This document shows, piece after piece, positions 28,153 through 51,392 of a stretch of 64,000 nt of DNA. A model generated the notes under the pieces. That model ran no database searches. It saw only the letters and a list, made by a program, of their open reading frames with translations, and was not told where the DNA came from. Both the position numbers and the translations under genes were made by a program. Numbering within the stretch: position 1 is the first letter of the stretch; each line of letters opens with the position of its first letter. This stretch comes from Antitrichia curtipendula (Eukaryota > Streptophyta > Bryopsida > Hypnales > Leucodontaceae): the NCBI GenBank assembly GCA_951230915.1, contig OX579635.1, forward strand, positions 20,460,001 through 20,524,000. The letters run 5' to 3'.

Positions 28153-28695
28153 TGATATATTATATATTTATTTATTTCTATAGAACACTATAATTATTTA
28201 AATATATAATTTATTAAAAAATTTCGTCTTTATCCTATCCAATCTAGTAATAATAATTTATAATTTTTATTATAATGCCATATTTAACTACTTCTGGACT
28301 TTGCTGAGTCCAGAATTAATAAAAACCACAAATCCCCCAATGCACCGGATCCTGAGATCTCTCGATGATTAGTGCAAACTGGAATGTTTTACAATTGTTG
28401 GCCGTGCACGAATTTACACAACTGTACTAGGTGATCTCCCAATGCGTAGTGCAAAATCCAAGTTCAGAAAATGATTCCTTGGGTGTGCAAGAGTTTTATT
28501 TTACGACTGGCAGTTGTATTGGGAGATCACCTGAGGTTATCCAACGAGAGATCTCTCGATGTATCCAATAGGCTTAAGAAAATCTCCCAGTACCGGCAGG
28601 TTTCTCAATGTCTACAACGATACCTCCAGGATCCAACGAGACCCTAAGATCTTCCGATGAATCCAACAGGAAATTGTCCAATACATTATTACTCC
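28153..28695. other. Left half of the pre-insertion locus, with AGATCTCTCGATG motifs
   Basis: GAGATCTCTCGATG occurs at 28354-28367 and 28548-28561, with relaxed versions (GGGAGATC, ATCTTCCGATG) between and after them. The same motif family occurs at 49833-49848 and 50154-50173, on the other side of the 20.7-kb element. No gene is recognised on this side. Confidence 0.6.
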
Positions 28696-28703
28696 AACAA
28701 GAG
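28696..28703. repeat. 8-bp target-site duplication, left (AACAAGAG)
   Basis: AACAAGAG directly precedes CAGGGTTG. The identical octamer follows the opposite end at 49387-49394. Confidence 0.85.
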
Positions 28704-28843
28704 CAGGGTTGTCCCCGTCACGTCCTGTCCGTCCGTCAGCATGTCCGGACGGACGTCAGGATTCAACCCCGGCGTCCGTCAGGATGAAATCTGGACGAGA
28801 ACCGTTGACAGAGGATGAAAACTACGGAAATGGATGGACGTTC

Positions 28844-29335
28844 TTTGCCGACGGGCGGCGAGCTTCCGTCTACGGGCACGGAACGGGCATGATGGACGGG
28901 TATCTGGACGGGCGGGATGGACGGGTATTTGGACGGAAAACTGGACGACCATGTGGACGGGCGGGTGGACGGGCATCTGGACAGGCATGTGGACGGGAGG
29001 GGGGGCGGTTGTGTGGACGGGCGGGATGGACGGGCGGGATGGACGGGTATGTGGATGGAAAACTGGACGGGCGGGTGGACAGGCATGTGGACGGGCGGGT
29101 GGACGGGTAACTAGACGGGCATGTGGATGGGCGGGTGGACGGGTAACTGGATGGGCGGGTGGACGGGCATCTGGACGGGTAAGTGGATGGGTAATTGGAC
29201 GGGCGGGTGGACGGGTAAGTGGACGGATAATTGGACGGGCATCTGGACGGGTAAGTGGACGGGCGGGTGGACGGGCATCTGGACGGGTAACTAGACGGTT
29301 CTGTGGACGGAAAAATAGATTGGACGGGTGGGATT
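28844..29335. repeat. GC-rich array 1: TGGACGGGCGGG-type 12-bp units
   Basis: Roughly 40 near-tandem units of 12 bp alternate TGGACGGGCGGG, TGGACGGGTAAC and TGGACGGGCATC. There is strong G over C strand skew. Long Gly/Arg/Trp-rich ORFs across it are repeat translation. It lies 140 bases inside the left transposon end, so it can be read as a subterminal array. Confidence 0.92.
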
Positions 29336-30622
29336 GGATTTTTGGCTTAAATGCCCGAAGCACCCAAATCTGGTGTTGGCAAAATTTTGAAGTTAAATAA
29401 AACCTAACCAAGTTGCTATTTTTAGTAGTATCCAAGTTGCTATTTTTAGTAAGTTCTTCTTGAAGTCTAGTTATAGCATCAATAGTCTATTCTTAAAAAT
29501 AAATGATAGTGATTTTTCGTTTCAAGACTTTGTGCAAGGGTACCCATTGCAATCTTGACTTCTTGTAGCATTGAGAGCTTTTGGAAATGTGCCTCGAAAA
29601 CACAAGATCTTGAAGAAAAAATCACATTCAAATTTTTTTTTTAATTTAAAAAAAAATATGGATTATATTTTTAAAAGCCATAAATTGTTTGGGGTTATAC
29701 ATGTTCGGCAATTTAACCTCATATTTTTGTGGTCTAAATTTTTTTTAATTTTACTTGTGAAAACTGAAAAGAGGATTGGAAGACTTCACATCATTTTTGT
29801 AGTTTTAACACCCTCATGTTCAAACATTATAATCATTTACTCTATAAGTGATATTGTTGTGTTTTAGCAACCTATGAGCCCCTAATATGTCTTATTTGAA
29901 TTTATATGGTTACAATTTTTTTGGAATTGATACGCCTAGTCACCTAATCAAAATGTTAACATTTTGTTCAATTTAGAGCAAATTTGTAGAAGCTCAAAAC
30001 ATGCCTTGGGCATCTAGGATTCTAGGGATTAAAGTTTGTTATTGAATTTCGAATTAGAGAAGTTGCTAAATTGATTTTACATTGACTATATGGCAAGAAA
30101 TTCAAAAATATAAATCCATGTAGCTATGTAGGCCCTATGCTAATTATTGCCAAAAAAAAATCCAAGTTGGCATTTCTCCATGTTCACCTTGAAATGAAAT
30201 GAAAAAAAAAAATTAGAATCTATTCAATTTAAGACTTTCAAGTATAGGATCGCCATTCATAAAGTCATTTATTTCAATTGATTTTCAAATAAATTTCATG
30301 TAGTGTGACCTTATCAAGTTAGCAATTGCAAGATATTAAACTTTGATCATTTGATTTCCATAATGCCATTTGAGAAAAAATGGAAAATGTTCAATACTTT
30401 AATTTGTAAACTTTGGATTTAAAAATAAACATGAGGGAGTAGTCAATCAATAGTCCAACTAAAAAAACATTAAAACTAATAAAACAAAAGTTACAAAACG
30501 TGAATTATTTTTTGGTTTAATTCTAAAGACTTAAAGGAGATTTCATCAAATATGAAGCAATCAAATAATTTGTTACTTATTTCTTGCTTTGGTAAAGAAT
30601 TTCCATTGTTTTTATTTCTTAG
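29336..30622. other. AT-rich interior of the giant element
   Basis: No gene is recognised. Confidence 0.45.
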
Positions 30623-31251
30623 CCCCTAAAGTAACATACTCTCATTGTCCTTTCTGCCAGGGACAAAATGGATTTTCGATAGGCTCCTATGATCTCATTT
30701 TTTACTAAAACTTTTGAAAACTTTTTCATAAGAATGATAAAATAGAATGATAGATAAACTTATGAGTTTATTCATAATACAATTTCTATTCCAATCGGTG
30801 CCTAGGAGCAAAGGGTATGCCACAATAACCTCAAACAGGGGAGATCGGGACACCGGGCGGTCCAAGACTCCGGGTAGACAAAAAAATCCACAAAAAAATG
30901 AAATACAAATTTGTATATTTTTTTTCCAGTTGGATTGTATTTTCTTTTAAATGGGAGGCTTTCATTCATCCCATTTGGATTAGGAATGGAAAAGTTATGG
31001 GTTTTTTGTGGAGCGGGCAATCCTAGCAACTTCTTAAAATAAATTTGTTTCTTTCACTTCGAATGCTAATAACTTTCAATCCATACGGTCAAACATCACA
31101 AATTTTTTATCACGTCATCTAAGACAAGTGTAGAACAAGATCCTTTGGTTCGATTCAAAAAATAAATTGGAAAATTTAATTCATAGGTGAACATAGCAAA
31201 AGTGGTGATTTAGGGTGGTTTGGGCCAAAAAATGGACTTCCGACTTTAGGG
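30623..31251. mobile_element. TTAA/CCCCTAAA family element, copy 2 (diverged)
   Basis: It begins CCCCTAAAGT and ends ACTTTAGGG, in reverse orientation relative to copy 1. Flanks TTAG and CTTC have drifted. It lies directly downstream of gene A. Confidence 0.5.
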
Positions 31252-31519
31252 CTTCACCAAAAATAAAATAGAACACTCTTTTACCTACCATCTAAGCATA
31301 CAAGCTTCTTCTATACTATTACAAAAAGGTCCAATAGATTACAAAAATTGACAAAGGCGAAGCAACAATACACGAGGTGGAAAGAAAACAATAAATGTAC
31401 ATATTTTATAAATCCGTTGAAGTATATGGTAAACTAATAAAGGCTTTACATAATTACATACGTTCACTTTGTACAACTTTCGGTATTTAATTCTATACAT
31501 CTATCTAGTTATATACAAT

Positions 31520-33814
31520 CTAGTCTACATCTTCGATTACAACGCCGCGTGCTATGCTATTTCTCAAAAATCGCTGCAGTTCTTCTTGCGATTTGAAAGT
31601 CCTCAGAAGCTGAAGTGCTTCTATATCGTATCTATCATGTAAGTGCCCAAAAATGTCATTCACGAGGGCTGGCTCATGGAAGGTATTGTCTTCAATGTAC
31701 GCCATTTCTTCCTCATAGTTCAATTCCCCCTCAAATCCGACTGGCTGGCCTTGAGAGTTAAACATGATGCGTAGTGGATGTGGTGCGCGTATAAAAATTA
31801 AGCGTTTTGGGTCCCAATGTCCACCGGCAATCTGACCAAAATATAGTCGACGCCCTGGATCACTGTCTCCAAACACCCTCCTGATCACCTCTGTCACTTG
31901 GTTGTCACTTGTCCATGGTATGTCAGCCACCGTTCCTGCCGGGAGGTGTCGGTTGTGGTGGCCCCACTTCCAAAGCCATGTCATGTCGGACCCCCAATGT
32001 ACTCTATTACAGGGGCCCGGTAAATTTTCTTCATTGTACTCGTAATGTTGAGGCATGTGGTCTTCAAGGCCAAACGTTTTGTACAGTCGTGCATGAAATG
32101 GAGCCCTGCATTGCGCACATCTCTTTCTGGTGACCATGTGTGGAATAAGACACACGGGGTGGTATAGATGGCCACATGTACCAAGATTCCATCCACCCTC
32201 GGGGCCAAACGGTTGTTGGCACATTATACATGTTGTTCCATTTTTTACAAAATCTGGAACGGAAGGCCACACTAGTGGCGTAATGCCATCGTTGTTGGGT
32301 GGCCCGTACCGTTGGTGATCAATATTATATTGGAATTCCAAGTCTGGACGGGCATTCCAATCGATGCTTGAATTCTCCCTATACGCTGGCAAATCATCGG
32401 TGAACATTTCTGCCACCCGAGGCCACGAGGTCAAGCCAAAATAACGTTGACCGCCATCATTGAATTCTGCAGCCACTCTCCTCACTTCACGTTGCATTTG
32501 CTCAGCCTCTTTTAGCGCTAAGATGCATGTCAACTTCATGTTGCACATTTGAAGCAGCCTCTGCTCCGTCTGAGGATTTTGAACCAACCGCATATTTTCA
32601 GCACTCAATGCGGTCATGGTCTGCTCCAAGGTTGTTCGAGCTGCAGTAACCACCGCCACCTCTGCCTCGGCGTTGTTGGCACGAAGTTCCAAAGCACGCA
32701 TGGCGTTTGTTAATTCTTCCACGTTTGTGCGAGTACTTCCAAGCTCTGCTTCAACTCGCTCAGCACGTGCACGCATAATATCCAATGTGGCACTTTCTGC
32801 ACTTGGAAAAGTGGATCGTGATCGCAGCACAAACTCAGATGTATTGCTCGGGCCTGGTGTGTCTTCGTCTGCACCGTATATAGCACGTTCCACTACAAGA
32901 TCGAGTGGTGGAACTGAGTCTGTGCTGACCCGCCTTTCACGCTCTACGAGCTCGGCTTCACGTGCGATGAGGCGCACATTTTCATCTTGAACGGCCCGCA
33001 TCCTTGCATGATGAACTTCCAACACTGCAGCATGTTGTCGTCGTGTTTCTTCTTTTTCTGCTTGCAGTGTTTGTACTAATTGGCGCAAGCGAATTACTTC
33101 TTCACCGTCAGCTTGCACTCCACCAATCACAGCTTGTTGGTTTACATCTGGACCGCTGCCCTGACCAACTTCTATCTCCATCAACTCCGTCCCTGGACGC
33201 TTTGCCAGTGGAACCACGTCCATTTGCACATTTTGGACATCATCCAATGGCACGGCAAGATTTGGTACATTGTCCAACGGCACAGTAGGATTTGGTGCAA
33301 TGTGGCGAGTTCGATTTGGAAATGTATTATTCCGCGATTTGCCCAAAAAGCTGCTCCAGTCCACATCCTTGCCAAGAAAAACCTCCGCATATGCCATTTG
33401 GCACAATGAAAGTGTCCCGTCTTTCTTGGATCTTGCCCCCCAAAGTACCAATGACATTTCAATCATCCTCTTCTTGAAGTGCGGATGTTGGCACTGGTCA
33501 ATATTTACCACGCCAGATTTCACGTGCACCTCGTACCGGTCATGTGGCCAATGGCGGTTGATGTGGGCCCAATCTATATATTGACGGCATATCACTCTTG
33601 TCCATGGGCCATCTGCCTCCAACCACCCAAGCTTTGCCATAACCTCTTCGGCATTAAGTGTGCCCCAATCCAAGGTTGCTCTGTTTCCTCTCTTCCTTCT
33701 ACCTGGGGGTTCACCTGCAGGTACCAAACCTCCTGGGGGGTCACCTCCAAGTCCCAAACCTCCTGGGGGGTCACCTCCAGGTCCCGAACCTCCTGCTACA
33801 TCCTCTACGTCCAT
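31520..33814 (-). CDS. Gene A: coiled-coil RING-H2 protein carried by hAT-like element
   Basis: The product has 764 residues from MDVEDV (33814). A longer in-frame start at 33943 is possible, but TTTTACAG (33826-33833 on the complement) just upstream looks like a leader-intron acceptor. Layout: Gly/Pro repeats (GGDPPGG) at 8-38; a conserved domain with GPWT…YIDWAHI and AYAEVFLGKDVDWSS at about 60-160; coiled coils at about 240-300 and 345-450; then FGLTSW…EMF. A RING-H2 at about 529-569 has CX2CX14CXHX2HX2CX10CX2C spacing, and a C-terminal domain follows. All eight zinc ligands are present, so ubiquitin-ligase activity is plausible, but the target is unknown. D (51562) and E (58798) are paralogues. 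The frame is fully open, in contrast to the broken D. Confidence 0.85.
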   Translation of the reverse strand: MDVEDVAGGSGPGGDPPGGLGLGGDPPGGLVPAGEPPGRRKRGNRATLDWGTLNAEEVMAKLGWLEADGPWTRVICRQYIDWAHINRHWPHDRYEVHVKSGVVNIDQCQHPHFKKRMIEMSLVLWGARSKKDGTLSLCQMAYAEVFLGKDVDWSSFLGKSRNNTFPNRTRHIAPNPTVPLDNVPNLAVPLDDVQNVQMDVVPLAKRPGTELMEIEVGQGSGPDVNQQAVIGGVQADGEEVIRLRQLVQTLQAEKEETRRQHAAVLEVHHARMRAVQDENVRLIAREAELVERERRVSTDSVPPLDLVVERAIYGADEDTPGPSNTSEFVLRSRSTFPSAESATLDIMRARAERVEAELGSTRTNVEELTNAMRALELRANNAEAEVAVVTAARTTLEQTMTALSAENMRLVQNPQTEQRLLQMCNMKLTCILALKEAEQMQREVRRVAAEFNDGGQRYFGLTSWPRVAEMFTDDLPAYRENSSIDWNARPDLEFQYNIDHQRYGPPNNDGITPLVWPSVPDFVKNGTTCIMCQQPFGPEGGWNLGTCGHLYHPVCLIPHMVTRKRCAQCRAPFHARLYKTFGLEDHMPQHYEYNEENLPGPCNRVHWGSDMTWLWKWGHHNRHLPAGTVADIPWTSDNQVTEVIRRVFGDSDPGRRLYFGQIAGGHWDPKRLIFIRAPHPLRIMFNSQGQPVGFEGELNYEEEMAYIEDNTFHEPALVNDIFGHLHDRYDIEALQLLRTFKSQEELQRFLRNSIARGVVIEDVD

Positions 33815-34020
33815 TCTTGATACCTGTAAAATGACACACACAATATTGTATGCGAATACAATGACAATTTGCTTTGCCTTCTCTTGCGTGAAGGCAACTG
33901 AAATGTGGCAAAACAATGTCAAATGTATAACACTTCCCCTCAAATTGCAGAGCGAAGCTTTCTCAAGCTCGGATAGTGCAACTCAAAAGAGGAAGCACGT
34001 AAACTGTCCAAAAAAGTTTA

Positions 34021-34026
34021 CTTATA
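34021..34026 (-). promoter_or_regulatory. TATA box of gene A
   Basis: On the minus strand this reads GGGGTATAAGT, about 205 bases before the ATG and about 215 bases from GC-rich array 2. It resembles the GGGTATATAAG boxes of genes B and E. Confidence 0.6.
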
Positions 34027-34112
34027 CCCCCCAATTACCGACCCGATTAGGCAGGGTAATTAACATAACATCATCCCGTCCCCCCCCGAATCTAGATCGT
34101 CCAGGCGTGGGA

Positions 34113-34163
34113 CAACCCTGGAATGGATGGCCGATACGTCCACAGAGGTCCGACACAGGGTTG
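34113..34163. other. Back-to-back hAT-type ends (CAACCCTG … CAGGGTTG)
   Basis: A right-type end CAACCCTG (34113-34120) and a left-type end CAGGGTTG (34156-34163) are separated by 35 bases. This is the arrangement expected where two separate elements lie side by side. Confidence 0.6.
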
Positions 34164-34239
34164 GGATGTCGTCAACGGGTTCGGGGCGCCGTCGATAGGT
34201 TCGGGAAATAATTACACCACCGCCCGAGACTTGAACGGG

Positions 34240-34648
34240 CGGATTTTTCGTCCTCTCGGCGGTCTGCTTGTCCCCTCGACGGCCTGCCCATTCCGTCGAC
34301 GGCCTGCCCGTCCCCTCGACGGATTGCCCGTCCCCTCGACAGAATACCCGTCTCCTGGACGGCATACCCGTCTCTTCGACAACATACCCCTCTCCTAGAC
34401 GGCATACCCATCTCGTGGACGGAATACCCATCTCGTGGACGGCATACCCGTCTCCTCGACGGAATACCCGTCTCGTGGACGGCAAACCCGTCTCCTCGAC
34501 GGGATACCCGTCCTCTTCGACGGCCTACCCGTCTCTTGGACGGAAAGGCTGTCCAAAAGGACAGGGTGCCCGTCTCTTCGACGGCCTGTCCCTGGTCGGG
34601 AACGGCCCGCCCATCCTCTTGACGGCCTGCCGAACGTCCTGGACGGCC
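34240..34648. repeat. GC-rich array 2: 20-bp GACGG…CCGTC units upstream of gene A
   Basis: About 20 units follow GACGGCATACCCGTCTCCTC. Each contains a GACGG and a CCGTC half, so each can form a small hairpin. It starts about 210 bases upstream of the gene A TATA box. Confidence 0.92.
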
Positions 34649-34659
34649 CTTTAAAATTT

Positions 34660-37140
34660 TTATGGGTATTCTTTTGAAAATTGATTTTTTATTTTTAGTA
34701 AAAAGCAGTTTTTTTATTTCTTCATGTCATGTCCATGTTAGAAAGTCTTGTAGCCATCTTAGAAAATGTTATGACTGTTTTAAGTGGGAAGATGACCATC
34801 ATGGAAACAATTTTCTGCTGATTTGGGGTAGTCTACAAACTCTTTTGGGCTTACTGGACAGTACACTTCAAAAATTTAAAAAAAATCATATTTAATCCAA
34901 AAAATAAAATTCCAGTTGCGTTCTTCATTTCTCACATGTGTCTTTGTATGGAAAAAATTTGATTATTTTTGCTAAAGGCAATACAACAAATCAGTCATTC
35001 TGCCTGTCATAGGCAGGTTTACCTTATATCACAAAGATAATGACATTAGAATCGATCATAGCATAAACTTAATTTCCATTTCATGATTTATTTAGAATGT
35101 ACTAAATGTAGTAGACATTAAAAACACATTCGAAGTGCAAATCGCAATAATGAAATTTCATTTTTAGGGTCGTGTTGGGGGATTTTACATAAAATAGGAA
35201 CTAGAGAAAATGAACTTTTGCCTTATAGTTAGACTCAAACTCAGAAAATATCAATTTGGGGGATAAATTTCAGATTTAGACTAAGGAGCAACAACTTCCC
35301 AAGATACACTAAAGTAGCATTTTTTTTTTTTTTTTTTTCCTAAACTCTAAATTACGCAGAGGCAAATATCGGAAAGACTACAAAATCATTTGGATACACT
35401 TTGGAACTCAACATGGAAGGTCCCCGAAAAATGAATTGAACGCTTCCACAATCTTTCCATCTCATTGAAGTGATTGAATTGCCATCAAATTGGCACTAAA
35501 TGATGTCGTTGGGCGTTCCAAGGTTGAAGTTTATTGTAAATATCTTGCAACCTACAATTCTATATAGGCAAAGTTTGTGAAATTTCTTCCGGTCAATTGA
35601 ACACTACTCTAGTACTCTAGTATGAGATCTTACATACTACAAGTAGATGTGCACCTTAAAGGCCTAAAGTCCTAAACACATTCATTTTTTTTTTTTACAT
35701 TCTTTACTATAGAAATGGCAATTTATTTCAGATATAGGATGCAAAAGAGGCCTTGGGACTTTAGTCAGTTTAGTGGTTAACATACGGTACTACATAAGCA
35801 ATTAATAAACAATCCATATGAAAAACTATAATAATTCACCGTTAGTTGCTTTATAGTTTAGAAGCCATAAAAAAAATATAGAGACCACAAAAATGTGAAG
35901 TTCATGTACTCAATGTTGCATTTCAATTTTATTACACCAATCCACTCTTATTTGCTATAGTTACATAAACTTGAACATCAAATACTCTTAAAATTGCAAC
36001 AGTGAAGAGGGTTTAGGGTTTAGGGTTTAGGGTTTGGGATTTAGGGTATTGTCCTATAGGATTTACTTCAAAACCTAGCATGGACCGGAAACCACAAAAA
36101 ATGTTCTTCCTTTTTTTAGTTGGCATTATAAGTGTAAAACTTGATCGAGATGTAGTCTTTGAAGTTTGAATTGGAAAAAAATAGATTAATGATTTAAAAT
36201 CAAAGTTTTATAAAACATATTGAAGACACCAAAAAACGGCATAACAATATCTTTAGAAGGTAAAACATTCTTAAGTTTAGATGTATAGGGCTACATTCTT
36301 TTTCTGTAATGTATGAATGGAAAGCCAAAACAATGTTTTACATTAATCAATGATATGCATATGACATATGTTGTTTAGGAGGTCTTTCACTTATTTCATA
36401 ATTAACCATTTCAAAGTTTTAATCTTACTACCTTTAACTAGAGCATTTAGAGGGTGGTTTATTGTCTTGGTCTTTGTATATTTGATCCGGGCTTAGTAAG
36501 TTATTGAATGTTTGTACGTTTGAGACTTTGAGTTGAGTATATTAGTGTAGCCAGGGTTTAAAATTCAACAAAATACTAAATTGTCAGGTGCACTTACATG
36601 CAGGGAAGGATGGAATCAAAATACAATAATTCCAAAGGTGAAATTGTTCGAGTTATAATTGATAAAATTCATTTGAATTCGAATTTGAGCCCTACAGAAT
36701 ATAAATTATTTTAAGGGATTGAGAGATTCTGGGATTTTTGTAAAAAAAACATTGCCCAATGCCAACAACTTTCGTGAAAATGGGTGCAATTAGAATGAAT
36801 CAAATATTAACATGAACATCCAAATAGAACATTCTAGGACTGACATTAAGAAGTTTTCAATTTGACCTTCTATGGTTTTTGCTATGTTTTTTCCATTATT
36901 TACGTGCAACAAAATATAATTCCATTCTATATGAGCATTAAACCTTGTTTTTTGAGCATTTGAATGTCATCTCTGGTATTTATTTGTCCTCTAATTGAAA
37001 CAAGTGTGAACATTAAGTTAGCACTCTTAAACTACCCGCCACCGTAGTCTAATGCCCGATTGAGAGGGAGGACACCTGTCCTGACAAGTCCGAGAGTGCC
37101 AAACCACATAAATGAAAAATTCTCCGAACAAGGATTAGAA
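34660..37140. other. AT-rich spacer with TTAA-family remnants
   Basis: No gene is recognised. Fragments such as GGGACTTTAG…GTGG-TTAA (35766-35795) belong to the CCCCTAAA family. A T18 run is at 35320-35338. The telomeric tract is listed separately. Confidence 0.5.
36008..36047 (+). repeat. Interstitial telomeric repeat (TTTAGGG)
   Basis: About four perfect GGGTTTA units are followed by one TTTGGGA variant and TTTAGGG. This is the plant telomere heptamer with the G-rich strand on the plus strand. A matching CCCTAAA tract in the opposite orientation is at 44245-44269. Confidence 0.92.
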
Positions 37141-37169
37141 ATGAGTTACACTCGGCCAGCACTGTTTTG

Positions 37170-37580
37170 AATGGCCCGCTCGACGACCTTCCCGCCCTCT
37201 CGACGGCCTTCCCGTCCTCTCGACGGCCTTCCCGTCTCTCGAAAGTCTTCCCGTCCTCTCGACGGCCAGTTCGCGGGCTGGACGGCTTGGCCCCCTGGAC
37301 GGCCAGTCCGCGGGCTGGACGGCCTTCCCGTCCTCAGGCCTAAAACCGCAGGCTGGACGGTCTCCCCCCCTGGACGCCCTTCCTGTCCTCTCGACGGCCA
37401 GTCCGCGGGCTGGACGGTCTCCCCCCCTGGACGGCCTTCCCGTCCTCTCAACGGCCAGTCCGCGGGCTGGACGGCTTGGCCCTTAGACGGCTTGGCCCTC
37501 TGGACGGCCTTCCCGTCCTCTGGACGCCTTGGACGGCCCTGGACGCTCTGTCCGTCCTCTCGATGGCCTGTCCGTCGACG
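37170..37580. repeat. GC-rich array 3: GACGGCCTTCCCGTCCTCTC units upstream of gene B
   Basis: About 20 units of 18-22 bp alternate with GACGGCCAGTCCGCGGGCTG. The same GACGG/CCGTC hairpin design occurs as in arrays 2 and 4. The array ends about 220 bases before the gene B TATA box. Confidence 0.92.
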
Positions 37581-37590
37581 TGAATGATTG

Positions 37591-37785
37591 GGGTGGATTG
37601 ACCCCCTCGTTCGGCCTTACCAGGGGTGCATGTAAAAAAAAGCCCTCTATTTTCGGCCGATCCAGGGTTATTATTTGATGTGATTGAACTAATTAGGGGT
37701 CTTTATGAATTCAGAATTTGCAAAAAAGGAATGGTGCGGAAAACAGGGTCGGCCCGGAGGGCCGAGCGAGGGGGTCAATTCACCC
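37591..37785. mobile_element. MITE-like inverted repeat between array 3 and gene B promoter (195 bp)
   Basis: The 26-bp arms start GGGTGGATTGACCCCCTCGT and GGGTGAATTGACCCCCTCGC, with 24 of 26 bases matched. It ends five bases before the G-box. Confidence 0.7.
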
Positions 37786-37789
37786 TGGC

Positions 37790-37810
37790 CACGTGAAATG
37801 GGTATATAAG
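37790..37810 (+). promoter_or_regulatory. G-box plus TATA box of gene B
   Basis: CACGTG (37790-37795) is followed by GGGTATATAAGA (TATATAAG at 37803-37810). The spacing puts the transcription start near 37835 and gives a leader of about 175 bases to the ATG at 38011. CACGTG is the classic bZIP/bHLH site of plants. Confidence 0.65.
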
Positions 37811-38010
37811 ACTGTTTTTAGGGTACTTTCGCCACAGTCTCTCCTGCTCTGACGGTGCTCTCTTGTCTTGGATTGGTTGCAGTCCTTGCTTGCGAGCGCG
37901 AGTGCTGGGTAGAGGCTTTTTTGAGGAATAAGGGGGGCGGTTTTTCACTTTGTGGAAGACGAATTCCTAATTCCTTTTATTTTGATTATTTATTACTTGT
38001 TACTGTCACG

Positions 38011-39601
38011 ATGGCTGGTCGCGATTTCTCGAAGAGAAAGGTTGATGATTGGTGGACAGGTGTTGGAGATGCACCGGTTATGGACCCGGATGCGGAATCA
38101 CCAGAGTCCGTTTCAGAGGCCGTAGCTGCAGAAGGGTCTGTAGCTGTTGTGGGGGGCGGAGAGTCTTCGAAGGGGAAGAAAAAACAACGAAGGAGGCACA
38201 AGGCTACAAATCCGGAGAAGTGGCCAAGCAAGGGTGCAACGCGCAAACTGCATGAAGTGGCGTTGGAATTTTTTGATCAGTATTCGATTTTGCAGTTGAA
38301 CTCAACATATGTCTCATGCGGATTACAGGGAGTGGATAAAATTAAACAAAAGTTCCACCACATGTTCTGGACAACAATGAGCGCGGATGAGTGGCATGAA
38401 GACCGCACGAAAAAATGCTTCGATCATTGGTTGGAGTCACAAGTGCAAACGTGTATCTTCAACCTTGCACAAGAAGGTGTATTGGTGGCATGATGCAGTG
38501 CGTGGATTGTCTTCAAGCAACATCCATTCCGCTCCGTGGTTTCAACGAAGTCAGAACTTGGCCTTTGGTCAACAAGCTGCAGGAGGAGTGGTTTTCCTTG
38601 AAAGAGGAGTGGTGGTGGTTCCTTTGTCTGGCCATAGCAAACAAGGGGGGCATGGGAGGATGCGCAAAGTATGTGTTCAAAATTCAAAACATATTCCCGA
38701 GAATATGGAATTAGCTGGGAAGTCAGCCTTGCGCGTGGATGAATTGAAGAAGTCCAGGGAAAAGTTGTCCATCGAGGCATTGGTATGTCCGTGCGAGCAT
38801 CCAGGGGTCATCAAATTCTTTGCTATAAATGACATGACCATGGAGTGTTATTCGCAATGGTGGAATGGCGGTACTCTCGGCGCCATGTTTACCCTTGATG
38901 AGAAGAACCGAGATCCAGATGAAATTGGGGAGTTGGCTTACCATGCAACTCCCCAATCAATGCAAGAAGCCAAACGAATCATGGCATATAGACGCAAGCG
39001 CACTGAACTTGCGTGGGCGATGATTTGCATTGTGGATGCAGTGCAACAGTGCTCTGTATTGCACAACGACATCACACCGGAGAACATTATGCTTCAATTT
39101 CCGAATGATGATGGAAGAACCGTGTGGATTGGTCTATGTGATTGGGGAATGGGTAGCCGCATCAACGAAGAAACCCCTTCTCTTTACCAATTCAATTGTC
39201 CAAGGAAGTTTCAGGCAACCCGAGCGCAACGTTGGTGGGTGGCTCCTGAGTTGATGTACTTGATTGGAGAGACAGGAACTTCATCATCTCCTACTCGTAG
39301 GGTTAAGCCACCGTGTGTTAGTATACACACGGACGGATACTCCATAGGGAAATTGGCTATGAAGGTATGGAAAAAAGATCGCGGAAATGTAGATATGATT
39401 CCGGACCTTACGGCATTTGGTACGTTTCAAACCATGTTGGGTGAATTGTGCAAGGGAGAGCCACTACAACGACGCTCGGTGACTGGAGTCGTGCAACGTC
39501 TAATTGGTGCTCCAACGTTTTGGACACCACCCATGGATTGCTACCGCGAGGCCCGCAAAGAACAAGACCTTCAAGAAGAGAAGGCGCGCAATGAAGATTA
39601 G
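38011..39601 (+). pseudogene. Gene B: protein-kinase-like protein with frame break
   Basis: The frame starts MAGRDFSKRK (38011) with a basic, NLS-like KGKKKQRRRHK at about residue 68. It continues to CIFN (about 38465), then the frame changes near 38470-38490 and runs to 39601. Compared with F, about 25 codons are missing at the change, so this is a deletion/frameshift or, less likely, an unusual intron. The kinase core has a glycine-rich QGGHGRMRKV, AGK lysine, an αC-like EAL, catalytic loop LHNDITPENIMLQF (HND for HRD), metal-binding DWG for DFG, and APE in RWWVAPEL. Lys, Asp and Asp are all present, so catalysis is conceivable if the break were absent. It lies inside the giant hAT-like element, divergent from A. 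Confidence 0.75.
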
Positions 39602-40470
39602 ATAATAGTGTATTACCATGTAGTTGCAAAATTAGTGTTCACTTAGTACATGCGGTTATTATAGTATGGGCTTGAGGACATCCATAGCAATGTAGCACAC
39701 TTTGTGGCTTCAATGCATTTTGTACTCATTTTGGTTTATATAAAGTTATAAACGTATTTTACCTAAACATTGAGTTGTAAAAAATTTCTTGTCTTCCCTA
39801 ACTTTATCATTTAAATTGCGTGTAAACACACATCTTATATCTTTAGTACTAAAAACTTTGAATTGTATATCACTACAAGAAATTTCAATTAGTTTTGTGC
39901 AAAATTGTAATTGTCAACATTTTTGTTGCACTTCATGCCATAAATAAGTAAAAATAGAAAAAACAATTCAAGAGATTCTAAATTTTTAGTTTTTTACAAG
40001 AGGTACAAATATCAATAGAGATTTCTAGTCAGAAAAATTTTCAATTGTTTATTTAATTTTTCATGCCCAAAACTAGTAAACAACCACAAAGAAAAGCTTG
40101 AAGTCAAATTTGACTATCAAACCAAATTTATATTTTTATTGAAAATCAGCATAATATTTTAATATTTTTCAACATACGTAAGAATTCATTTTCTATTTAT
40201 GCTTTTTTTTTCCAGAAAATTCAATGGAAAATTGATTTTATTGTGATTTTATAAAGCTAAACGTGGAAATCAGATTTTATCAATTATAATATGTATGAGA
40301 ATAATCTGAAACTGGGGCCATAAATGAATGAATGAACACAAATTATAGTTTTATAATTTTAATTTTAATGAAATTTGAAAAAAAGAAAACATACATGAAA
40401 AAAACACCACACTGTGTTATTTGGATTGCAAACATAGTTTCCAATTGCAATAATTCTTTCAAATTTTGAC
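39602..40470. other. AT-rich 3' flank of gene B
   Basis: No gene is recognised. A CACTACAAGAAA heptamer-type motif at 39871-39882 resembles a CACTA transposon tip, but no partner end was found. Confidence 0.4.
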
Positions 40471-40479
40471 CTCGATTCT

Positions 40480-40794
40480 TGAATATTCAAAAAAATAATT
40501 CAAAAACAATAGTGCCCCGAAGGCCCAATTTTCCATAAATCACACTCAGTGAAAGTTAATCTGAAATTGCAAAGCTAGCATTCAGAAAACTAGTTTTTTC
40601 AAGTTTGAATGCTAATATCTTTCAATCTATTCGGTCAAACTTCATGAAAATTTTACCATGTGATAAAAAACATCTGAAGTATAAGATCTTACGGTTAGAT
40701 GTTGTAAAAAATATTTTTTCCGTATGTTGAGGCAAATGCAAGAGAAAAGACAATTTTGCGTTTTTTTTGTGTAATGACTTCGGGACTTTAGGGG
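40480..40794. mobile_element. TTAA/CCCCTAAA family element, partial copy 3
   Basis: The right end ACTTTAGGGG (to 40794), followed by TAAA, and an internal GGTCAAACTTCATGAAAATTT block match the copies at 30623-31251 and 54799-55722. The left end is not identified. Confidence 0.45.
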
Positions 40795-40927
40795 TAAACA
40801 GTTCTATGAGAATGAAAGGAACAAAAGTCATATTTCATATTAATGCTGATTTCAATATGCAAGGTATTGAGCCGCTAAAACCATTGCATTTGAAAACATG
40901 AAGACCCTATTGTCTTTTCAAAAACAT

Positions 40928-43900
40928 TCAACGTCTTCCATGCCTAAGAATGCGCATAGAAGTATTTGCATTTGCTTCTTGTACTATTGGTTCACCACTA
41001 CCCATTTCTTCGAGTGGACCTTGTCGAGGCACCGGCCCTCTATAATCACTATCTCCTGGAACCTCACCATCTTCACCTATAGTACCACCGATGGATTCAC
41101 CATCATCATTGGATGTTGCACTACCACTTTCGCTGGAAGCCTCGGAATTGCGGTTTCGTTGTGGTCGAGCTATAGAAGACAACGTCCGAAGAGGTCGTTG
41201 GCCCATTGCGTCCATAATGCCATCTGTATTGGGTCCTCCTGTTTGAAATTCTCTTGAAAATGGTTGGGAAGCCGCTTCTTCCCTCCTCAGCCTTCTACGC
41301 GTTCTACTACTTACACGTTCACTAGTAGTACCTTGTGGTCGTGGACACTTCCTTTGATTATTGGCATGCACAGGTGGCCGCAATGAAGTCGTATTTCTAG
41401 TCACACGCTGTGACACCATACCAGCCAATCGTGTACCTAATGACGAAGTTGGTTCGTGTGGACGGCCATCGGAACTAGACGGCCTTGATGAACTTTGGAT
41501 TTGTAGATTTTCCAATATTGGCATTTGCCTTTGTGCAACCGAGACTCGATTTGGAGGGGCCATATGTGCTTCTCCACCTTGAGGGGGCCCTTCACTGCGG
41601 GTGGTCCTCATGGGCAATGACGGTGGTACTACTACGTCTTCTTCACGTCCTCTTTGAACGTCAACACCATCTCTTTCTATTGTGGCATCAACTTGTACAT
41701 CCATAGGGTCTGGACTTAGTGGTCTCGGTGCCACAACGTCCTCGTTTGTATTGCCCCCACTTGGCCCAGCATTCCACGTTTGTGGCATTCGTGGTGGACT
41801 TCCTTGATGTCCCTCGTAGTCATTGTCGATGTTATCCCCCTCTTCAAAGTCAAATACGGATGCATCAATTAGAGGACGCATTCCTCCCGCCCCACGAAAT
41901 CTATCAAACGGTGGCTCATCGTCGTCATTGGAACTATCATCTGAATCGTCATCATTGGGATCAGAGAGAACCAAACCACGGTCTAGACCATCAGATTCAT
42001 CTGTCATGGAATCCTCTGACATCATGTTTTCAATATATCACCTTGTCGGATTTGCTGCAGCCCTTTCTCTAAGAGTCTTGGAATTGGTATAAATGTAAAT
42101 CAATTCCTCAATATGCTTTGATGTCAATCTATTGCGTGATTTGTTGTGGACAAACAAATACATGCTCCAATTGCGTTCACAGGATGATGCAGAACACACT
42201 TGCGCGAGAATCTTTCTGGCAATCGGTGCAAGTGTACGAGCACCGGCTCCGAGAAGGTCCCACCATTCATGAGGTTGCAAATTCAAGGCATTTACATCAG
42301 GAAGTCCACCGAAAATGCCTCGCCGATCTCTAAATGCTTGGTACTCAGACAAAGCTGAAGCAAATGCTTGATCTCCAACAGCCAATTTGCGCAAAACTCT
42401 CAGTATGGCTTCTCTTGCCTCATTATCATCCATTAGCATGACTTCGTCAAGTAAAAAGGGATTCAATAGAGCCCCAGCGTAATGCAAATCAGTCCTGAGC
42501 ATGTCCCAGCGCTTGTAGAAATCATCGGTGCCGGAAATTGCATATCTCCGCTCTAATGAAAATGGTGAATCCTCCAAAGATAAAACATGCTTTTCCACCT
42601 TTTTCATTACAAGCCATGCCTTGTCTAAACACGAGTGCTTGCCATCAAACTCTCGAAGAGCAATCAACATGGGCTCCACTATGTGCACAAAGTTCAAACA
42701 TTTCCTCCAAAATTCATCCGTTCGCACATATCGTCGCACATCGTTAGCTTTTCTTTGCTTTTGATTGGATGCCAATCTCGCGTGTATTCATTCCACTGCG
42801 GATCGTGGACTGTCGATTCTATCGCTTCCCTCACCTCCACCAAACGTTCGATCATGAGGAACATGGTAGCAAAGCGTATTTGAACGGGATTTTTCAAAAC
42901 GTGATTAGGAGAATGTCGTCGAAAGATTGCAAGTGGCATGTGATGCGTTTGAATGTATTTCACAATTGACTTGACTTTCTTGACCATACTTGTAATCCAA
43001 TCTTGTTTTCCCCAATCTTCAAATAGAAGGTCAAGTGCATGTGCTGAACGCCCTTGAAAATATATGTGTGGAAATCTACGAAGTAACAGAGCGCCAGCGG
43101 TCAACATGTTTGCTGCACTGTCTGTACAAACTTGTACCATGTTCTGTGCCCCTACCTCGTCAATGTAATCACCCATGCAATTAGCCACGTAAGTAGCATC
43201 TTTGCATTTGCCTGTTGTGTCTATCGATCCAAGAAAAACCTCTCCACTTGTACATGCCAACATGACATTCATCAATGGTCGATGTGTAACGTTGTCCCAT
43301 CCATCAGAGCATATTGTAACGCCATATTTGTGGATTGGTGCCCTCGTCTTCTCTGCTACAATTGCTGCCACTTTGTCTTTTGTAGATTTTATGAGCTTTG
43401 TACGAAGTGCATGGTACGCTGGAGGTTTGTAGCCAACTCTTGATTCCGATGTTGATTTCACTGCATCCAGAAAAGCAGGATGCCTCACTACATTGAATGG
43501 TATATTGGCTTCGTAGAAAAACTTAGCCCACTTCTTGTCAAGTACTTGCTTGTTTGATGCGTTCAGTCCTTCTTGTAGAGACAGTTGCCTCATCGATCGA
43601 CTGTGGGTCAAACTAGGGTTGGGCGCCTCCGATGATCGTACTTGAGAGCTTTGCCCTCCAGTGTTTTCTCCTCCATCGTTTGCCGAGATTGAAGCATCAT
43701 GTTGTTGCTCACCACGTACTACACTTGGTAGTATCGTTGATGGTGATGTCACTTCCACGTCGCGTCCAGTTCCGTGCAAAGTGTCCGTAGGTATATGTCC
43801 TCCACAATTAAAAAACATTACCTTCACGGCTGCATTGACTTTAGTGCATGCTCTCACTCCAAGGAGGGTGTCATTTCGTCTATATCCCAAATGGAAAAGC

Positions 43901-44007
43901 AACCGATCCTTTCGATAGCTTAGCAAAGCTTCGCAAAACTTGCAAACAACTTTTCCATCTGGCCGTAGTGTGTACCAAGGTTCCCACTGTGATCTTGCTC
44001 CACCCAT
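40928..44007 (-). pseudogene. Gene C: hAT transposase (BED/DUF659-like, hAT dimerisation), decayed
   Basis: The start MGGARSQWEPW is at 44007. Order: BED-type finger (CKFC…HL, residues about 8-40); linker; transposase core with CSDGWDN, LGSIDTTGKCKDATY, VQVCTDSAANM, GRSAHALDLLFEDWG and RFATMFLMIERL. The hAT C-terminal dimerisation block near 42200-42330 has EWWDLLGAG, CSASSCERNWS and NRLTSKHIEELIYIYTN. A frameshift lies at about 42775-42800 between core and C-terminal part, and an in-frame TGA at 42038-42040 is followed in the same frame by a 365-codon Ser/Asp/Arg-rich tail (42025-40928). The first two acidic catalytic positions are present. A minor chance of sequencing error remains for the frameshift. 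Its presence identifies the superfamily of the giant element. Confidence 0.88.
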
Positions 44008-44221
44008 TGCTCTTATCTGTCCTCCTTTACCTGCCCCTGCACCAAAAAAAAGATTAGTATTCTGTTTGAAATGTGATGTGGAAACAACACTTGTTGCTCT
44101 CACAACAAGTGCCACCACAACACACTCTTCTTGGACTTCACTCTACCCCAATGGTTGTACTCCAACCAAGTCATGAAAGGCAAAATCAGCAAGGGAAAGT
44201 AATCTTGAATAGGCAGAAGTC

Positions 44222-44230
44222 CTTAATATA
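44222..44230 (-). promoter_or_regulatory. TATA-like box of transposase gene C
   Basis: GGTGTATATTAAGG on the minus strand lies between the telomeric/telo-box tract and the ATG (215 bases away). Confidence 0.5.
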
Positions 44231-44244
44231 CACCTTGAAGCCCT

Positions 44245-44269
44245 CCCTAAAACCCTAAACCCTAAACCC
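44245..44269 (-). repeat. CCCTAAA telomere-type tract (telo-box cluster)
   Basis: Three to four CCCTAAA units lie between the 5-kb array and the gene C TATA-like box. Their orientation is opposite to that of 36008-36047. Such telo-boxes also occur as promoter elements in plants. Confidence 0.85.
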
Positions 44270-44275
44270 AGCTAG

Positions 44276-47200
44276 ACGGAGTGACGGCTGATGGGGTAGA
44301 CCCTAAACTCGCAGCCTTGCCAACGAAACCGTCCAAGGGCCGACTATCCCATCCTGTAATATTCCGGTCCAGGGACGGGACGGTCTCCCGTCCACAGGAC
44401 GGAGAGTCCGTCCAAGGGACGGATTACCGTCCTGAAGACAAGAATTCCGTCCAGAGACGGGCTCTCCGTCTAGGGGACGGCTTACCGTCCAGCGACGGAC
44501 TCTCTGTCCAGAGGACGGCTTACCGTCTAGCGACGGACTCTCCATCCAGAGGACGGCTTGCTGTCCAACGACGGACTCTCCGTCCAGATGACGGCTTACC
44601 GTCCAACGACGGACTCTCCGTCGAGTGGAGGGCTTGCCGTCTAGCGATGCACTCTCTGTCCAGAGGACGGCTTACTATCCAGCAACGGACATTCCATCCA
44701 GCAGACGGCTTACCGTCCAGCGGCGGACTCTCCGTCCAGAGGACGGCTTACTATCCAGCGACGGACTCTCCATCCAGCAGACGGCTTACCGTCCAGCGGC
44801 GGACTCTCCGTCCAGAGGACGGCTTACCGTCCAGCGACGGAGTCTCCGTCCAGAGGACGGCTTATTGTCTAGCGACGGACTCTCCATTCAGAGGACGGCT
44901 TGCCGTCCAGCGACGGACTCTCCGTCGAGCGGAGGGCTTGCCGTCTAGCGACGGACTCTCCGTCCAGAGGACGGCTTACTATCCAGCAACGGACATTCCA
45001 TCCAGCAGACGGCTTACCGTCCAGCGGCGGACTCTCCGTCCAGAGGACGGCTTACTATCCAGCGACGGACTCTCCATCCAGCAGACGGCTTACCGTCCAG
45101 CGGCGGACTCTCCGTCCAGAGGACGGCTTACCGTCCAGCGACGGAGTCTCCGTCCAGAGGACGGCTTATTGTCTAGCGACGGACTCTCCATTCAGAGGAC
45201 GGCTTGCCGTCCAGCGACGGACTCTCCGTCGAGCGGAGGGCTTGCCGTCTAGCGACGGACTCTCCGTCCAGATGACAGCTTACCGTCCAGCGACGGACTC
45301 TCCATCCAGCGGACGGCTTACCGTCCAGCCACGGACTCTCCGTCCAGATGACAGCTTACCGTCCAGCGACGGACTCTCCATCCAGCGGACGGCTTACCGT
45401 CCAGCCACGGACTCTCCGTCCAAAGGACGGCTTATCGTCCAACGACGGACTCTCCATCGAGCGGACGGCTTGCTGTCTAGCGACGGACTCTCAGTCCAGA
45501 GGACGGCTTACCGTCCAGCGACGGACTCTCTGTTGAGCGGGCGGCTTACCGTCCAGCGACGGACTCTCCGTCGAGCGAAGGGCTTGCCGTCTAGCGACGG
45601 ACTCTCCGTCCAGAGGACGGCTTACCGTCCAGCGGACGGCTTACAGTCCAGCGACGGACTCTCCGTCGAGCGGACGGCTTGCTGTCCAGCGACGAACTCT
45701 CAGTCTAGAGGACGGCTTACCGTCCAGCGACGGACTCTCCGTCCTGAGGACGGCTTATTGTCCAGCGACGGACTCTCCGTCGAGCGAAGGGCTTGCCGTC
45801 TAGCGACGGACTCTCTGTCTAGAGGACGGCTTACTATCCAGCAACGGACTCTCCATCCAGCAGACGGCTTACCGTCCAGCGGTGGACTCTCCGTCCAGAG
45901 GACGGCTTACTATCCAGCGGACGGCTTACCATCCAGCGACGGACCCTCCATCCAGCGGACGGCTTACCGTCCAGCCACGGACTCTCCGTCCAAAGGACGG
46001 CTTATCGTCCAACGACGGACTCTCCATCGAGCGGACGGCTTGCTGTCTAGCGACGGACTCTCAGTCCAGAGGATGGCTTACCGTCCAACGACGGACTCTC
46101 CGTCCAGCGGACGGCTTACCGTCCAGCGACGGACTCTCCGTCGAGCGCAGGGCTTGCCGTCTAGCGACGGACTCTCTGTCCAGAGGACGGCTTACTATCC
46201 AGCAACGGACTCTCCATCCAGCAGACGGCTTACCGTCTAGCAACGGACTCTCCATCCAGCAGACGGCTAGCCGTCCAACGACGGACTCTCCGTCCAGCGG
46301 ACGGCTTACCGTCCAGCGACGGACTGTCCGTCGAGCGGAGGGCTTGCAGTCTAGCGACGGAGAGTCCGTCGAGCGGACGGCTTACCGTCCAACGACGGAC
46401 TCTCCGTCCAGCGGACGGCTTACCGTCCAGCGACGGACTGTCCGTCGAGCGGAGGGCTTGCAGTCTAGCGACAGAGAGTCCGTCGAGCGGACGGCTTACC
46501 GTCCAACGACGGACTCTCCGTCCAGCGGACGGCTTACCGTCCAGCGACGGACTGTCCGTCGAGCGGAGGGCTTGCAGTCTAGCGACGGAGAGTCCGTCGA
46601 GCGGACGGCTTACCGTCCAGCGACGGACTCTCCGTCCAAAGGACAGCTTATCGTCCAGCGGACGGCTTACAGTCCAGCGACGGACTCTCCGTCGATCGGA
46701 CGGCTTGCTGTCCAGCGACGAACTCTCAGTCTAGAGGACGGCTTACCTTCCAGCGACGGACTCTCCGTCCAGAGGACGGCTTATTGTCCAGCGACGGACT
46801 CTCCGTCGAGCGAAGGGCTTGCCGTCTAGCGACGGACTCTCTGTCTAGAGGACGGCTTACTATCCAGCAACAGACTCTCCATCCAGCAGACGGCTTACCG
46901 TCCAGCGGTGGACTCTCCGTCCAGAGGACGGCTTACTATCCAGCGGACGGCTTACCGTCCAGCGACGGACCCTCCATCCAGCGGACGGCTTACCGTCCAG
47001 CCACGGACTCTCCGTCCAAAGGACGGCTTATCGTCCAACGACGGACTCTCCATCGAGCGGACGGCTTGCTGTCTAGCGACGGACTCTCAGTCCAGAGGAT
47101 GGCTTACCGTCCAACGACGGACTCTCCGTCCAGCGGACGGCTTACCGTCCAGCGACGGACTCTCCGTCGACCGGAGGGCTTGCCGTCTAGCGACGGACTC

Positions 47201-49320
47201 TCCGTCCAGATGACAGCTTACCGTCCAGCGACGGACCCTCCATCCAGCGGACGGCTTACCGTCCAGCCACGGACTCTCCGTCCAAAGGACGGCTTATCGT
47301 CCAACGACGGACTCTCCATCGAGCGGACGGCTTGCTGTCTAGCGACGGACTCTCCGTCCAGAGGATGGCTTACCGTCGAACGACGGACTCTCCGTCCAGC
47401 GGACGGCTTGCCGTCTAGCGACGGACTCTCCGTCCAGATGACAACTTACCGTCCAGCGACGGACTCTCCATCCAGCAGACGGCTTACCGTCTAGCAACGG
47501 ACTCTCCATCCAGCAGACGGCTAGCCGTCCAACGACGGACTCTCCGTCCAGCGGACGGCTTACCGTCCAGCGACGGACTCTCCGTCGAGCGGAGGGCTTG
47601 CAGTCTAGCGACGGAGAGTCCGTCCAGCGGACGGCTTACCATCCAGCGACTGACTCTCCATCCAAAGGACGGCTTATCGTCCAACGACGGACCCTCCTTC
47701 GAGCGGACGGCTTGCTGTCCAGCGACGGACTCTCAGTCCAGAGGACGGCTTACCGTCCAGCGACGGACTCTCCGTCCAGAGGACGGCTTGTTGTCCAGCG
47801 ACGGACTCTCCGTCGAGCGCAGGGCTTGCCGTCTAGCGACGGACTCTCTGTCCAGAGGACGGCTTACTATCCAGCAACGGACTCTCCATCCAGCAGACGG
47901 CTTACCGTCTAGCAACGGACTCTCCATCCAGCAGACGGCTAGCCGTCCAACGACGGACTCTCCGTCCAGCGGACGGCTTACCGTCCAGCGACGGACTGTC
48001 CGTCGAGCGGAGGGCTTGCAGTCTAGCGACGGAGAGTCCGTCGAGCGGACGGCTTACCGTCCAACGACGGACTCTCCGTCCAGCGGACGGCTTACCGTCC
48101 AGCGACGGACTGTCCGTCGAGCGGAGGGCTTGCAGTCTAGCGACGGAGAGTCCGTCGAGCGGACGGCTTACCGTCCAGCGATGGACTCTCCGTCCAAAGG
48201 ACGGCTTATCGTCCAGCGGACGGCTTACAGTCCAGCGACGGACTCTCCGTCGAGCGGACGGCTTGCTGTCCAGCGACGAACTCTCAGTCTAGAGGACGGC
48301 TTACCTTCCAGCGACGGACTCTCCGTCCAGAGGACGGCTTATTGTCCAGCGACGGACTCTCCGTCGAGCGAAGGGCTTGCCGTCTAGCGACGGACTCTCT
48401 GTCTAGAGGACGGCTTACTATCCAGCAACAGACTCTCCATCCAGCAGACGGCTTACCGTCCAGCGGTGGACTCTCCGTCCAGAGGACGGCTTACTATCCA
48501 GCGGACGGCTTACCGTCCAGCGACGGACCCTCCATCCAGCGGACGGCTTACCGTCCAGCCACGGACTCTCCGTCCAAAGGACGGCTTATCGTCCAGCGAC
48601 GGACTCTCCGTCGAGCGGAGGGCTTGCAGTCTAGCGACGGACTCTCCGTCGAGCGGACGGCTTACCGTCCAGCGACGGACTCTCCGTCCAAAGGACGGCT
48701 TATCGTCCAACGACGGACCCTCCATCGAGCGGACGGCTTGCTGTCCAGCGACGGACTCTCCGTCGAGCGGAGGGCTTGCAGTCTAGCGACGGACTCTCGG
48801 TCGAGCGGACGGCTTACCGTCCAGCGACGGACTCTCCGTCCAAAGGACGGCTTATCGTCCAACGACGGACCCTCCATCGAGCGGACGGCTTACCGTCCAG
48901 TGGCGGACTCTCCGTCCAGCGACGGACTCTCTGTCGAGCAAACGGCTTGCCGTCCAGCAACGGACTCTCCGTCCTGGGGACGGCTTACCGTCCAGTGACG
49001 GAGTCTCCGTCCAGTGGACGGCTTACCGTCCAGCGAACGGTTTACCGTCCAGGGACGGACTCTCAGTCGGGCGGAGGGCTGACCGTCCAGCGACGGACTC
49101 TCCGTCCAGATGACGGCTTACCGTCCAACGATCCACTCTTCGTCCAGCGGACGGCCTCTTCGTCCACAGACGGGCTCTCCGTCCAAGAGACGGATGTCCA
49201 TTTGGCGACGGAGTCACCGTCCAGGAGACGGCCTGACGTCGTCGCAGAATGGACAGACTTCATCCGCGCTCCGGATGGTCCCGTCAGTACCGACGACGGG
49301 CTGTGACGCGTCAAAACGCG
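44276..49320. repeat. GC-rich array 4: 5-kb minisatellite of GGACGG/CCGTCC hairpin units
   Basis: There are about 130 copies of a ~38-bp unit made of two half-units, GGACGG-ACTCT-CCGTCC and GGACGG-CTTA-CCGTCC, joined by AGAG/AGCG spacers. Each half is a six-base-pair stem with a 4-5-base loop. Variant half-units (GAGCGGAGGGCTTG, AGCGGACGGCTTAC) recur in larger blocks of several hundred bases, indicating unequal exchange. ORFs up to 446 codons across it arise only because the unit lacks stops. It lies between the right transposon end and the transposase promoter. Confidence 0.95.
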
Positions 49321-49386
49321 TTAGGACGGACGCGTCCTGACATCCGGACGTGAAAAGCCCACGTCACGTTCGGATAGAGAACCCTG

Positions 49387-49394
49387 AACAAGAG
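49387..49394. repeat. 8-bp target-site duplication, right (AACAAGAG)
   Basis: This is identical to 28696-28703 and immediately follows AACCCTG at 49380-49386. Confidence 0.85.
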
Positions 49395-50076
49395 ATCCCT
49401 CGACACCTTAATGGTAGTAGTTCAAAGTGATGTTGAATCATGACATAAGCTAGTGCATGTAGCCTTCACTGCGGACGGTGGTCACTAGTCAGTTGCACAA
49501 CCAAACAAAACATAATGCAAATTCAAATCGACAACACTGTACCCAAGAAAATATTCTCAACAAAACATAAAAATATCAAAACAGGACTTCAAAATAGGGA
49601 GCAAACACAGCTACACGTTCCTAATGTGACATACCAATATTAAAGAACTTGCTGGATGCAATGACTGACTAGCATGAACATTTTATCACCTCTTCATTCC
49701 ATACATTTAGACAAATCCAAAGCAAAAGCTTCGTCTCCTAAACAACAGACTTGAACTACGTCAACTTTGCATAACCAAAGACATTCAATATGTAGTCTGC
49801 AAATTAAGAGACCCACAAACTTGAAAGACATTGGGAGATCTCCCGATGTCAATGATGAAACGGACTGGGTTCTCCAAGAACATATATTCTTAAAACACAA
49901 CTCAACTTCAAGACGGGAGAGCAAGCACAACTTAAAGGTCTCAACACGACAGAAGTTGATGTCACAAAAGCAATACATGGTGCAATGAGTGACTAGCAAG
50001 AACTTCCTATTCACTTTCTCATTTCGTCAATTGATTCAAATCCTAAACAAGTCCTTATAGAAACAATAAACAAAAT
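49395..50076. other. Right half of the pre-insertion locus
   Basis: It contains the palindrome GGGAGATCTCCCGATG (49833-49848), with a second, CATCGGGAGATCCCCCGATG, at 50154-50173 inside the H frame. No gene is recognised; it may be the 3' flank of H. Confidence 0.5.
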
Positions 50077-50814: not shown

Positions 50815-51000
50815 CAGGGTTGTTCTGCGCGACCTGGCGACATCGCGACAAACAGACGTCACGCGACATCCAGGAGACCCTCCGCGACGTCACATAAAGT
50901 CAAATTTACCTTTGACTTTTCAAAAAATTACCCCCTTTTTACCTAAGCTACATGGATGCCATGTGGGGTCCGCGTAGCACATTTTAGGGGCGCATGCGGG

Positions 51001-51357: not shown

Positions 51358-51392
51358 CACATGCTCAAAGAAGCGTACCCGTGCTCGCCCAC

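Follow-up and report, generated by a model that had tools for sequence, protein, structure and literature searches.

Ordinary hAT elements are usually regarded as a transposase gene with two ends. Fungal Starships use a tyrosine recombinase, the captain, and carry variable cargo. Among hAT elements, Ac/Ds, Tam3 and Slide are named in PMC9033089. PMC5735166 describes Arabidopsis VANDAL elements as carrying accessory genes besides the transposase and, in noncoding DNA near genes, a short family-specific motif in dense tandem array, and Arabidopsis VANC as binding such tandem motif arrays.

Here we analyse an element in the window, by which we mean the whole 64-kb stretch of DNA under study (C3:20460001-20524000), against a genome of 400,189,583 bp in 303 contigs. 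With its 8-bp duplication, CAGGG-type ends and hAT transposase domains, the element belongs to the hAT superfamily, and the kinase and RING genes beside its transposase look unusual for that class. It is very probably one now-defective copy of a high-copy, multigene hAT family in a land plant, probably a moss.

Ends and mobility of the element

The features of the element, in positions of the window, are as follows.

28696-28703, no strand: left target-site duplication AACAAGAG, from an octamer search of the window and from empty sites
28704-28725, + strand: left terminal repeat CAGGGTTGTCCCCGTCACGTCC, the same end recurring in other copies
28730-29330, no strand: left subterminal array of 12/36-bp units with GGACG, from tandem-repeat and motif counts
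31520-33814, - strand: gene for a coiled-coil RING-H2 protein of about 764 aa, from open reading frame, Pfam and alignment, start codon assumed
34250-34640, no strand: array upstream of the RING gene, 20-bp units with CGTCC/CGACGG
37174-37590, no strand: array upstream of the kinase gene, 20/57-bp units
38011-39601, + strand: protein kinase gene, from Pfam (PF00069) and copy comparison, frameshifted in the window copy
40928-44007, - strand: hAT transposase gene (DUF659, hAT dimerisation domain and acidic tail), from Pfam and copy alignments
44360-49185, no strand: long array, 38-bp unit repeated about 125 times, upstream of the transposase and adjoining the right end
49362-49386, - strand: right terminal repeat, reverse complement CAGGGTTCTCTATCCG, likewise recurrent
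49387-49394, no strand: right target-site duplication AACAAGAG, from an octamer search of the window

The first-pass annotation had reported CAGGGTT ends framed by identical octamers, and both are present exactly at the positions it gave. The element starts with CAGGGTT at 28704 and closes with AACCCTG at 49386, a length of 20,683 bp. When the 37 CAGGG words of the window are paired with its 36 CCCTG words, this is the single pair whose flanking octamers differ by at most one base, and AACAAGAG is absent from the rest of the 64-kb window on both strands. The core of the terminal inverted repeat is 7 bp in the window copy, and at its right end the first base past this core is unlike that observed at right ends elsewhere. 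Other copies have CAGGGTTGTC at their left ends and at the majority of their right ends, while three right ends have CCCTA in place of CCCTG.

That 28704-49386 is one mobile hAT-like unit, with the bounds first proposed for it, is shown by three independent tests: empty sites, recurrent ends with octamers, and a collinear copy elsewhere. For the first of these, the joined flanks (204 + 180 bases, 28500-28703 and 49395-49574) were searched against this genome. The six matches comprised the two flanks themselves and four sequences contiguous across the junction. Three of the latter were extracted; they are 84–87% identical to the flanks, and each carries the octamer once, as AACGAGAG, AACAAGAG and AACAAGAG. 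Within this one genome, the empty site that had been suggested as a check is thus found. A second empty site comes from a copy on C4, with GTGTGTGT on both sides, which is inserted in the 5' part of another copy's RING gene; its joined flanks align gap-free over the junction.

The suggested search for further CAGGGTT-ended copies with 8-bp duplications at new sites, again in this genome, was also positive. Right ends (best 40 of 505 candidates scored) were extracted in 30 cases including that of the window, and in 26 of them the end was identified where it should lie, next to differing flanks; one more, L056, was recognised in addition. Left ends were taken from 12 of the 13 end pairs outside the window (C2:53172073 was left out), and 11 of the 12 were found, every one preceded by a different octamer. 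In nine further copies both ends could be compared, the octamers agreeing at 8/8 positions in seven, at 7/8 in one and, counted by eye, at 6/8 in one. The sequence inside the left end is 99–100% identical genome-wide among the best 40 of 2,816 candidates scored, and across 14 end pairs the elements measure 15.9–20.7 kb.

The collinear copy, C3:4558049-4574482, is 16,434 bp long with ATATGTAC on each side. Its difference in size from the window element lies mostly in the right array, and the two diverge by 1.1–1.7% in three AT-rich spacers.

The surroundings of the element hold other repeats and genes. Its insertion site sits in an old dispersed repeat, of which four other contiguous copies exist at 84–87% identity. 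To the left, NLR-type genes can be made out by eye at 12715-13680 and 22720-25863, containing long runs of tandem 72/144-bp leucine-rich repeats, and fragments of a non-LTR retrotransposon, with reverse-transcriptase-like and endonuclease-like reading frames recognised by eye, occupy 245-7161 on the - strand. A short run of TTTAGGG-type units lies at 36010-36036, between the RING and kinase genes of the element.

Genes and arrays

The three genes that the first reading had named (hAT transposase, RING-H2 and kinase) are all present by Pfam, but the transposase and the kinase of the window copy are broken, whereas transposase-intact copies exist elsewhere. The window transposase matches PF04937 (E 8.9e-37) and PF05699 (E 6.5e-10), and an intact copy matches the same two profiles (E 4.9e-39 and 3e-6, respectively). 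Relative to one other copy (L077), the window gene lacks one base near 42779; it is also interrupted by a stop at 42038-42040, a point at which the 16.4-kb copy reads through, and the seemingly separate acidic reading frame at 40931-42037 is the C-terminus of the transposase. A frame of 1071 codons (1026 aa from the ATG) is open in all four extracted copies, which had been picked for stop-free frames in the genome search, where the best 88 of 1,649 candidates were scored. Candidate D-D-E residues were located by eye in the motifs SDGW, CTD[NS] and CERNWS. A protein database returned 39 transposase matches, including a DUF659 transposase of Ceratodon purpureus at 41% identity. Together with the NLR-type genes left of the element, this match makes a moss the likely host.

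Five copies differ by about 2–3.5% over the transposase region, and dN/dS within the family is 0.53–0.85 (six pairs). Counting each difference once per copy pair, the six pairs show 408 transitions to 81 transversions in the coding sequence, whereas the spacers yield 38 to 26; the excess would fit decay of methylated cytosines.

Compared with L003, the kinase of the window copy (PF00069, E 1.2e-8) is missing 71 bp after 38464, which shifts its frame; in other copies the protein is 553 aa long. The genome search scored the best 102 of 1,504 kinase candidates, which are 91–97% identical apart from the window's own. Thirty copies, comprising the 29 best-scoring loci (L003–L031) of the 102 plus one extracted copy, were inspected, and 13 of the 30 are free of stops and indels; dN/dS within the family is 0.62. 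Ten aligned kinases all keep the AGK lysine and the glycine loop. Other motifs vary: the catalytic D is replaced by N (HND to HNN) in L004, which is otherwise counted intact, and in the database protein P0042, and the DWG motif reads NFG in the window's second-family kinase and NWG in a third kinase (both described below). From these residues, the kinases of the first family are on the whole likely to be active, though not in each copy. Eleven kinase matches were found in the protein database, eight at 59–81% identity and three at 30–37%; one transposase match and one kinase match each lie on a 6,480-bp contig, probably the same one. A profile of the kinase retrieved 39 sequences with solved structures, and those shown, FUS3, IRE1 and MAPK1 among them, are general kinases.

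The RING gene of the window copy has an open frame, running stop-to-stop from 31523 to 33982. Its match to PF13639 (E 2.1e-4) is under the gathering score, and the eight zinc ligands of RING-H2 are invariant in an alignment of five proteins. Three database proteins match it at 50–67% identity. A structure prediction (mean pLDDT 43) was too poor to use. In the genome, 55 RING loci including that of the window were scored, the best of 2,432 candidates.

GC-rich arrays had been noted next to both ends. They do lie there, and arrays are additionally internal, upstream of each gene. GGACG/CGTCC words reach 10–25 per 500-bp bin at the densest point of each array, compared with 0.76 per kb outside the element. 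In all eight genes that could be placed (the three of the window element, four of the second family plus the third kinase), a family-specific GC-rich array precedes the assumed start codon by 210–537 bp. The motif is GGACG in the window family, GGCGACC in the neighbouring family and GGAGTC beside the third kinase, and subterminal repeats are present at both element ends. This placement is the pattern expected of binding platforms for promoters and ends, and proteins may bind there.

Recurrence of the gene set in two families

The set of transposase, kinase and RING-H2 genes recurs in fixed order and orientation in the window family. A transposase match lies on the opposite strand at +2.5 to +8 kb from 64 of the 102 kinase matches, and a RING match on the opposite strand at -9.5 to -4 kb from 44; both are as expected in 31. 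Seen from the partners, a kinase stands beside 64 of the 88 transposase matches and 44 of the 55 RING matches, the RING total excluding 13 of 68 matches that were short second pieces. As controls, the wrong strand gave 2 transposase and 0 RING matches, and the mirrored interval 0 and 0. A listed right end accompanies 26 of the 102 kinases, a listed left end 30, and all four parts occur together in 4. Since only the best candidates were scored, these counts are lower bounds, and the 38 kinases with no transposase listed at the expected place and the 58 with no listed RING gene are not read as lacking them. In total, at least 146 loci (clusters) hold at least one part of the element.

Some kinases also occur as close pairs. 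Nine of the eleven pairs within 80 kb are inverted, 11–69 kb apart. The pairs L004/L011, L022/L030, L023/L024 and L019/L028 have 43, 7, 9 and 6 mismatches, respectively, in about 4.1 kb; two other copy pairs, taken for comparison, have 77 and 80 over about 3.7 kb. Inverted segmental duplications and assembly fold-backs are candidate readings of the inverted pairs.

A second family begins 1.4 kb to the right of the window element, with these features.

50815-64000, + strand: second-family element with left end CAGGGTTGTTCTGCGCGACC and GGCGACC arrays, its right end beyond the window
about 51562-54028, + strand: second-family RING gene, in three frames
57356-58798, - strand: second-family gene with a RING-like N-domain
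60102-61418, - strand: second-family kinase gene

Its left end at 50815 is confirmed by a second copy with a different flank, and its hAT transposase was found beside one copy. Genome searches scored the best 96 of 1,398 candidates for the kinase, 131 of 1,490 for the RING gene and 113 of 1,247 for the transposase. A RING match stands where expected for 72 of 97 kinase matches (wrong strand 2, mirror 0) and a transposase match at -16 to -6 kb for 61 of 97 (controls 0 and 0); among the 97, one locus is represented by two pieces, and four matches have 55–56% identity. Conversely, a listed kinase is found beside 73 of 134 RING and 61 of 114 transposase matches, totals that likewise include pieces. 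Between the two families, the proteins share about 30–39% identity (kinase 33%, RING about 32%, transposase 39%). With gene directions aligned, the RING and transposase positions are swapped, so that the gene set has been kept and its order has not. The kinase and RING genes, which had been called cargo, are therefore better described as standing genes of the high-copy family, and of the second family alongside it, than as an occasional load.

A second identical kinase at C3:20622107, with a possible mirrored empty site, had suggested an inverted duplication (palindrome) around the window. This was rejected: the homology in 4 kb ends at the 50815 element end, and the locus is thus read as another copy of the neighbour.

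A third kinase, L085 (C3:18194720-18196399), adjoins a GGAGTC array and shares 33% and 28% identity with the two kinases above. By eye, it lies close to a possible CATGGTTGTC-like end.

Interpretation and known systems

We propose that transposase from intact copies would cut the CAGGGTT ends, helped by the subterminal GGACG arrays, and would mobilise intact and broken copies alike. With the same motif before each gene, an element-encoded protein could locate the promoters of the element and control them. The E3 ligase-like RING protein and the kinase may in turn work on the element's behalf, whether they counter host silencing in a VANC-like manner or modify the transposase. Such a regulatory or anti-silencing role, argued from analogy, is a serious possibility that we hold at somewhat below even chances. 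Against the overall reading, the dN/dS values above indicate weak constraint among copies, some kinases have altered motifs, and one end pair agrees at no more than 6/8 positions.

The same weak constraint would be expected if an ordinary hAT element had by chance acquired kinase and RING genes of the host, which were then copied along without a role, and the many broken copies and the kinase motifs altered in some of them point the same way. However, the same two types of gene accompany the second, 39%-identical transposase family in a different order, the third kinase adjoins a third array motif, and the RING ligands, kinase lysine and glycine loop are invariant across families and database relatives. 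A one-off capture predicts neither recurrence across families nor invariant residues, and this alternative, already weakened, appears improbable. Far less probable again is that the window element is only a non-autonomous carrier, moved solely by transposase from elsewhere, its three genes inert. The broken transposase and kinase agree with this for the window copy, for which it may hold, but the family has intact transposase frames at four loci, and at that level there is no conflict with a multigene hAT family of which the window holds a defective copy. A stack of independent elements with coincidental outer octamers, which the internal arrays and the CAGGGTT/AACCCTG words resembling inner ends at 34120, 34156, 36552 and 37663 might suggest, is rejected for the unit as a whole and is just as improbable, as no inner pair has octamers within one base of each other, the independent copy with its own duplication is collinear, and the empty sites hold none of the unit.

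Beyond the defective copy in the window, the multigene family may exemplify a class of hAT elements in which an element-borne kinase and RING ligase disarm host silencing or license transposition, in convergence with VANC, with the family's own array motif before each gene examined, letting elements of 16–21 kb reach more than 100 places. We offer this wider proposal more tentatively still than the role of the two proteins. To our knowledge, the regulation between DNA transposons and their hosts is little studied in this plant lineage. Kinase and RING genes with a transposase in two diverged lineages, and motif arrays for each promoter, make a testable system for the regulatory dialogue between transposon and host and its evasion. 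Genes annotated as kinases or RING proteins in such genomes may also, in many cases, belong to transposons.

The element resembles hAT elements of the Ac/Ds, Tam3 and Tol2 type in its 8-bp duplications, short CAGGG-type ends, transposase with DUF659 and dimerisation domains, and subterminal repeats; it differs from them in its size of 15.9–20.7 kb, its three recurrent genes and the arrays upstream of every internal gene. In searches of one open-access library, whose results included PMC9033089, PMC13317346 and PMC5735166, we found no hAT element with conserved kinase and RING genes. As with fungal Starships, to judge from the portions of the literature available, this is a large DNA element with non-transposase genes, but it has a hAT transposase and, in the window family, a recurrent gene set. 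With VANDAL elements and VANC, as the available portion of their description presents them, it shares additional genes and family-specific motif arrays in noncoding DNA near the element's genes. Among the proteins scanned, only hAT, kinase and RING domains rose above background, with no Mutator-type transposase or VANC-like domain. Thus, in contrast to the Mutator-like VANDAL elements, the transposase here is of the hAT type, with a kinase and a RING protein as accessory products.
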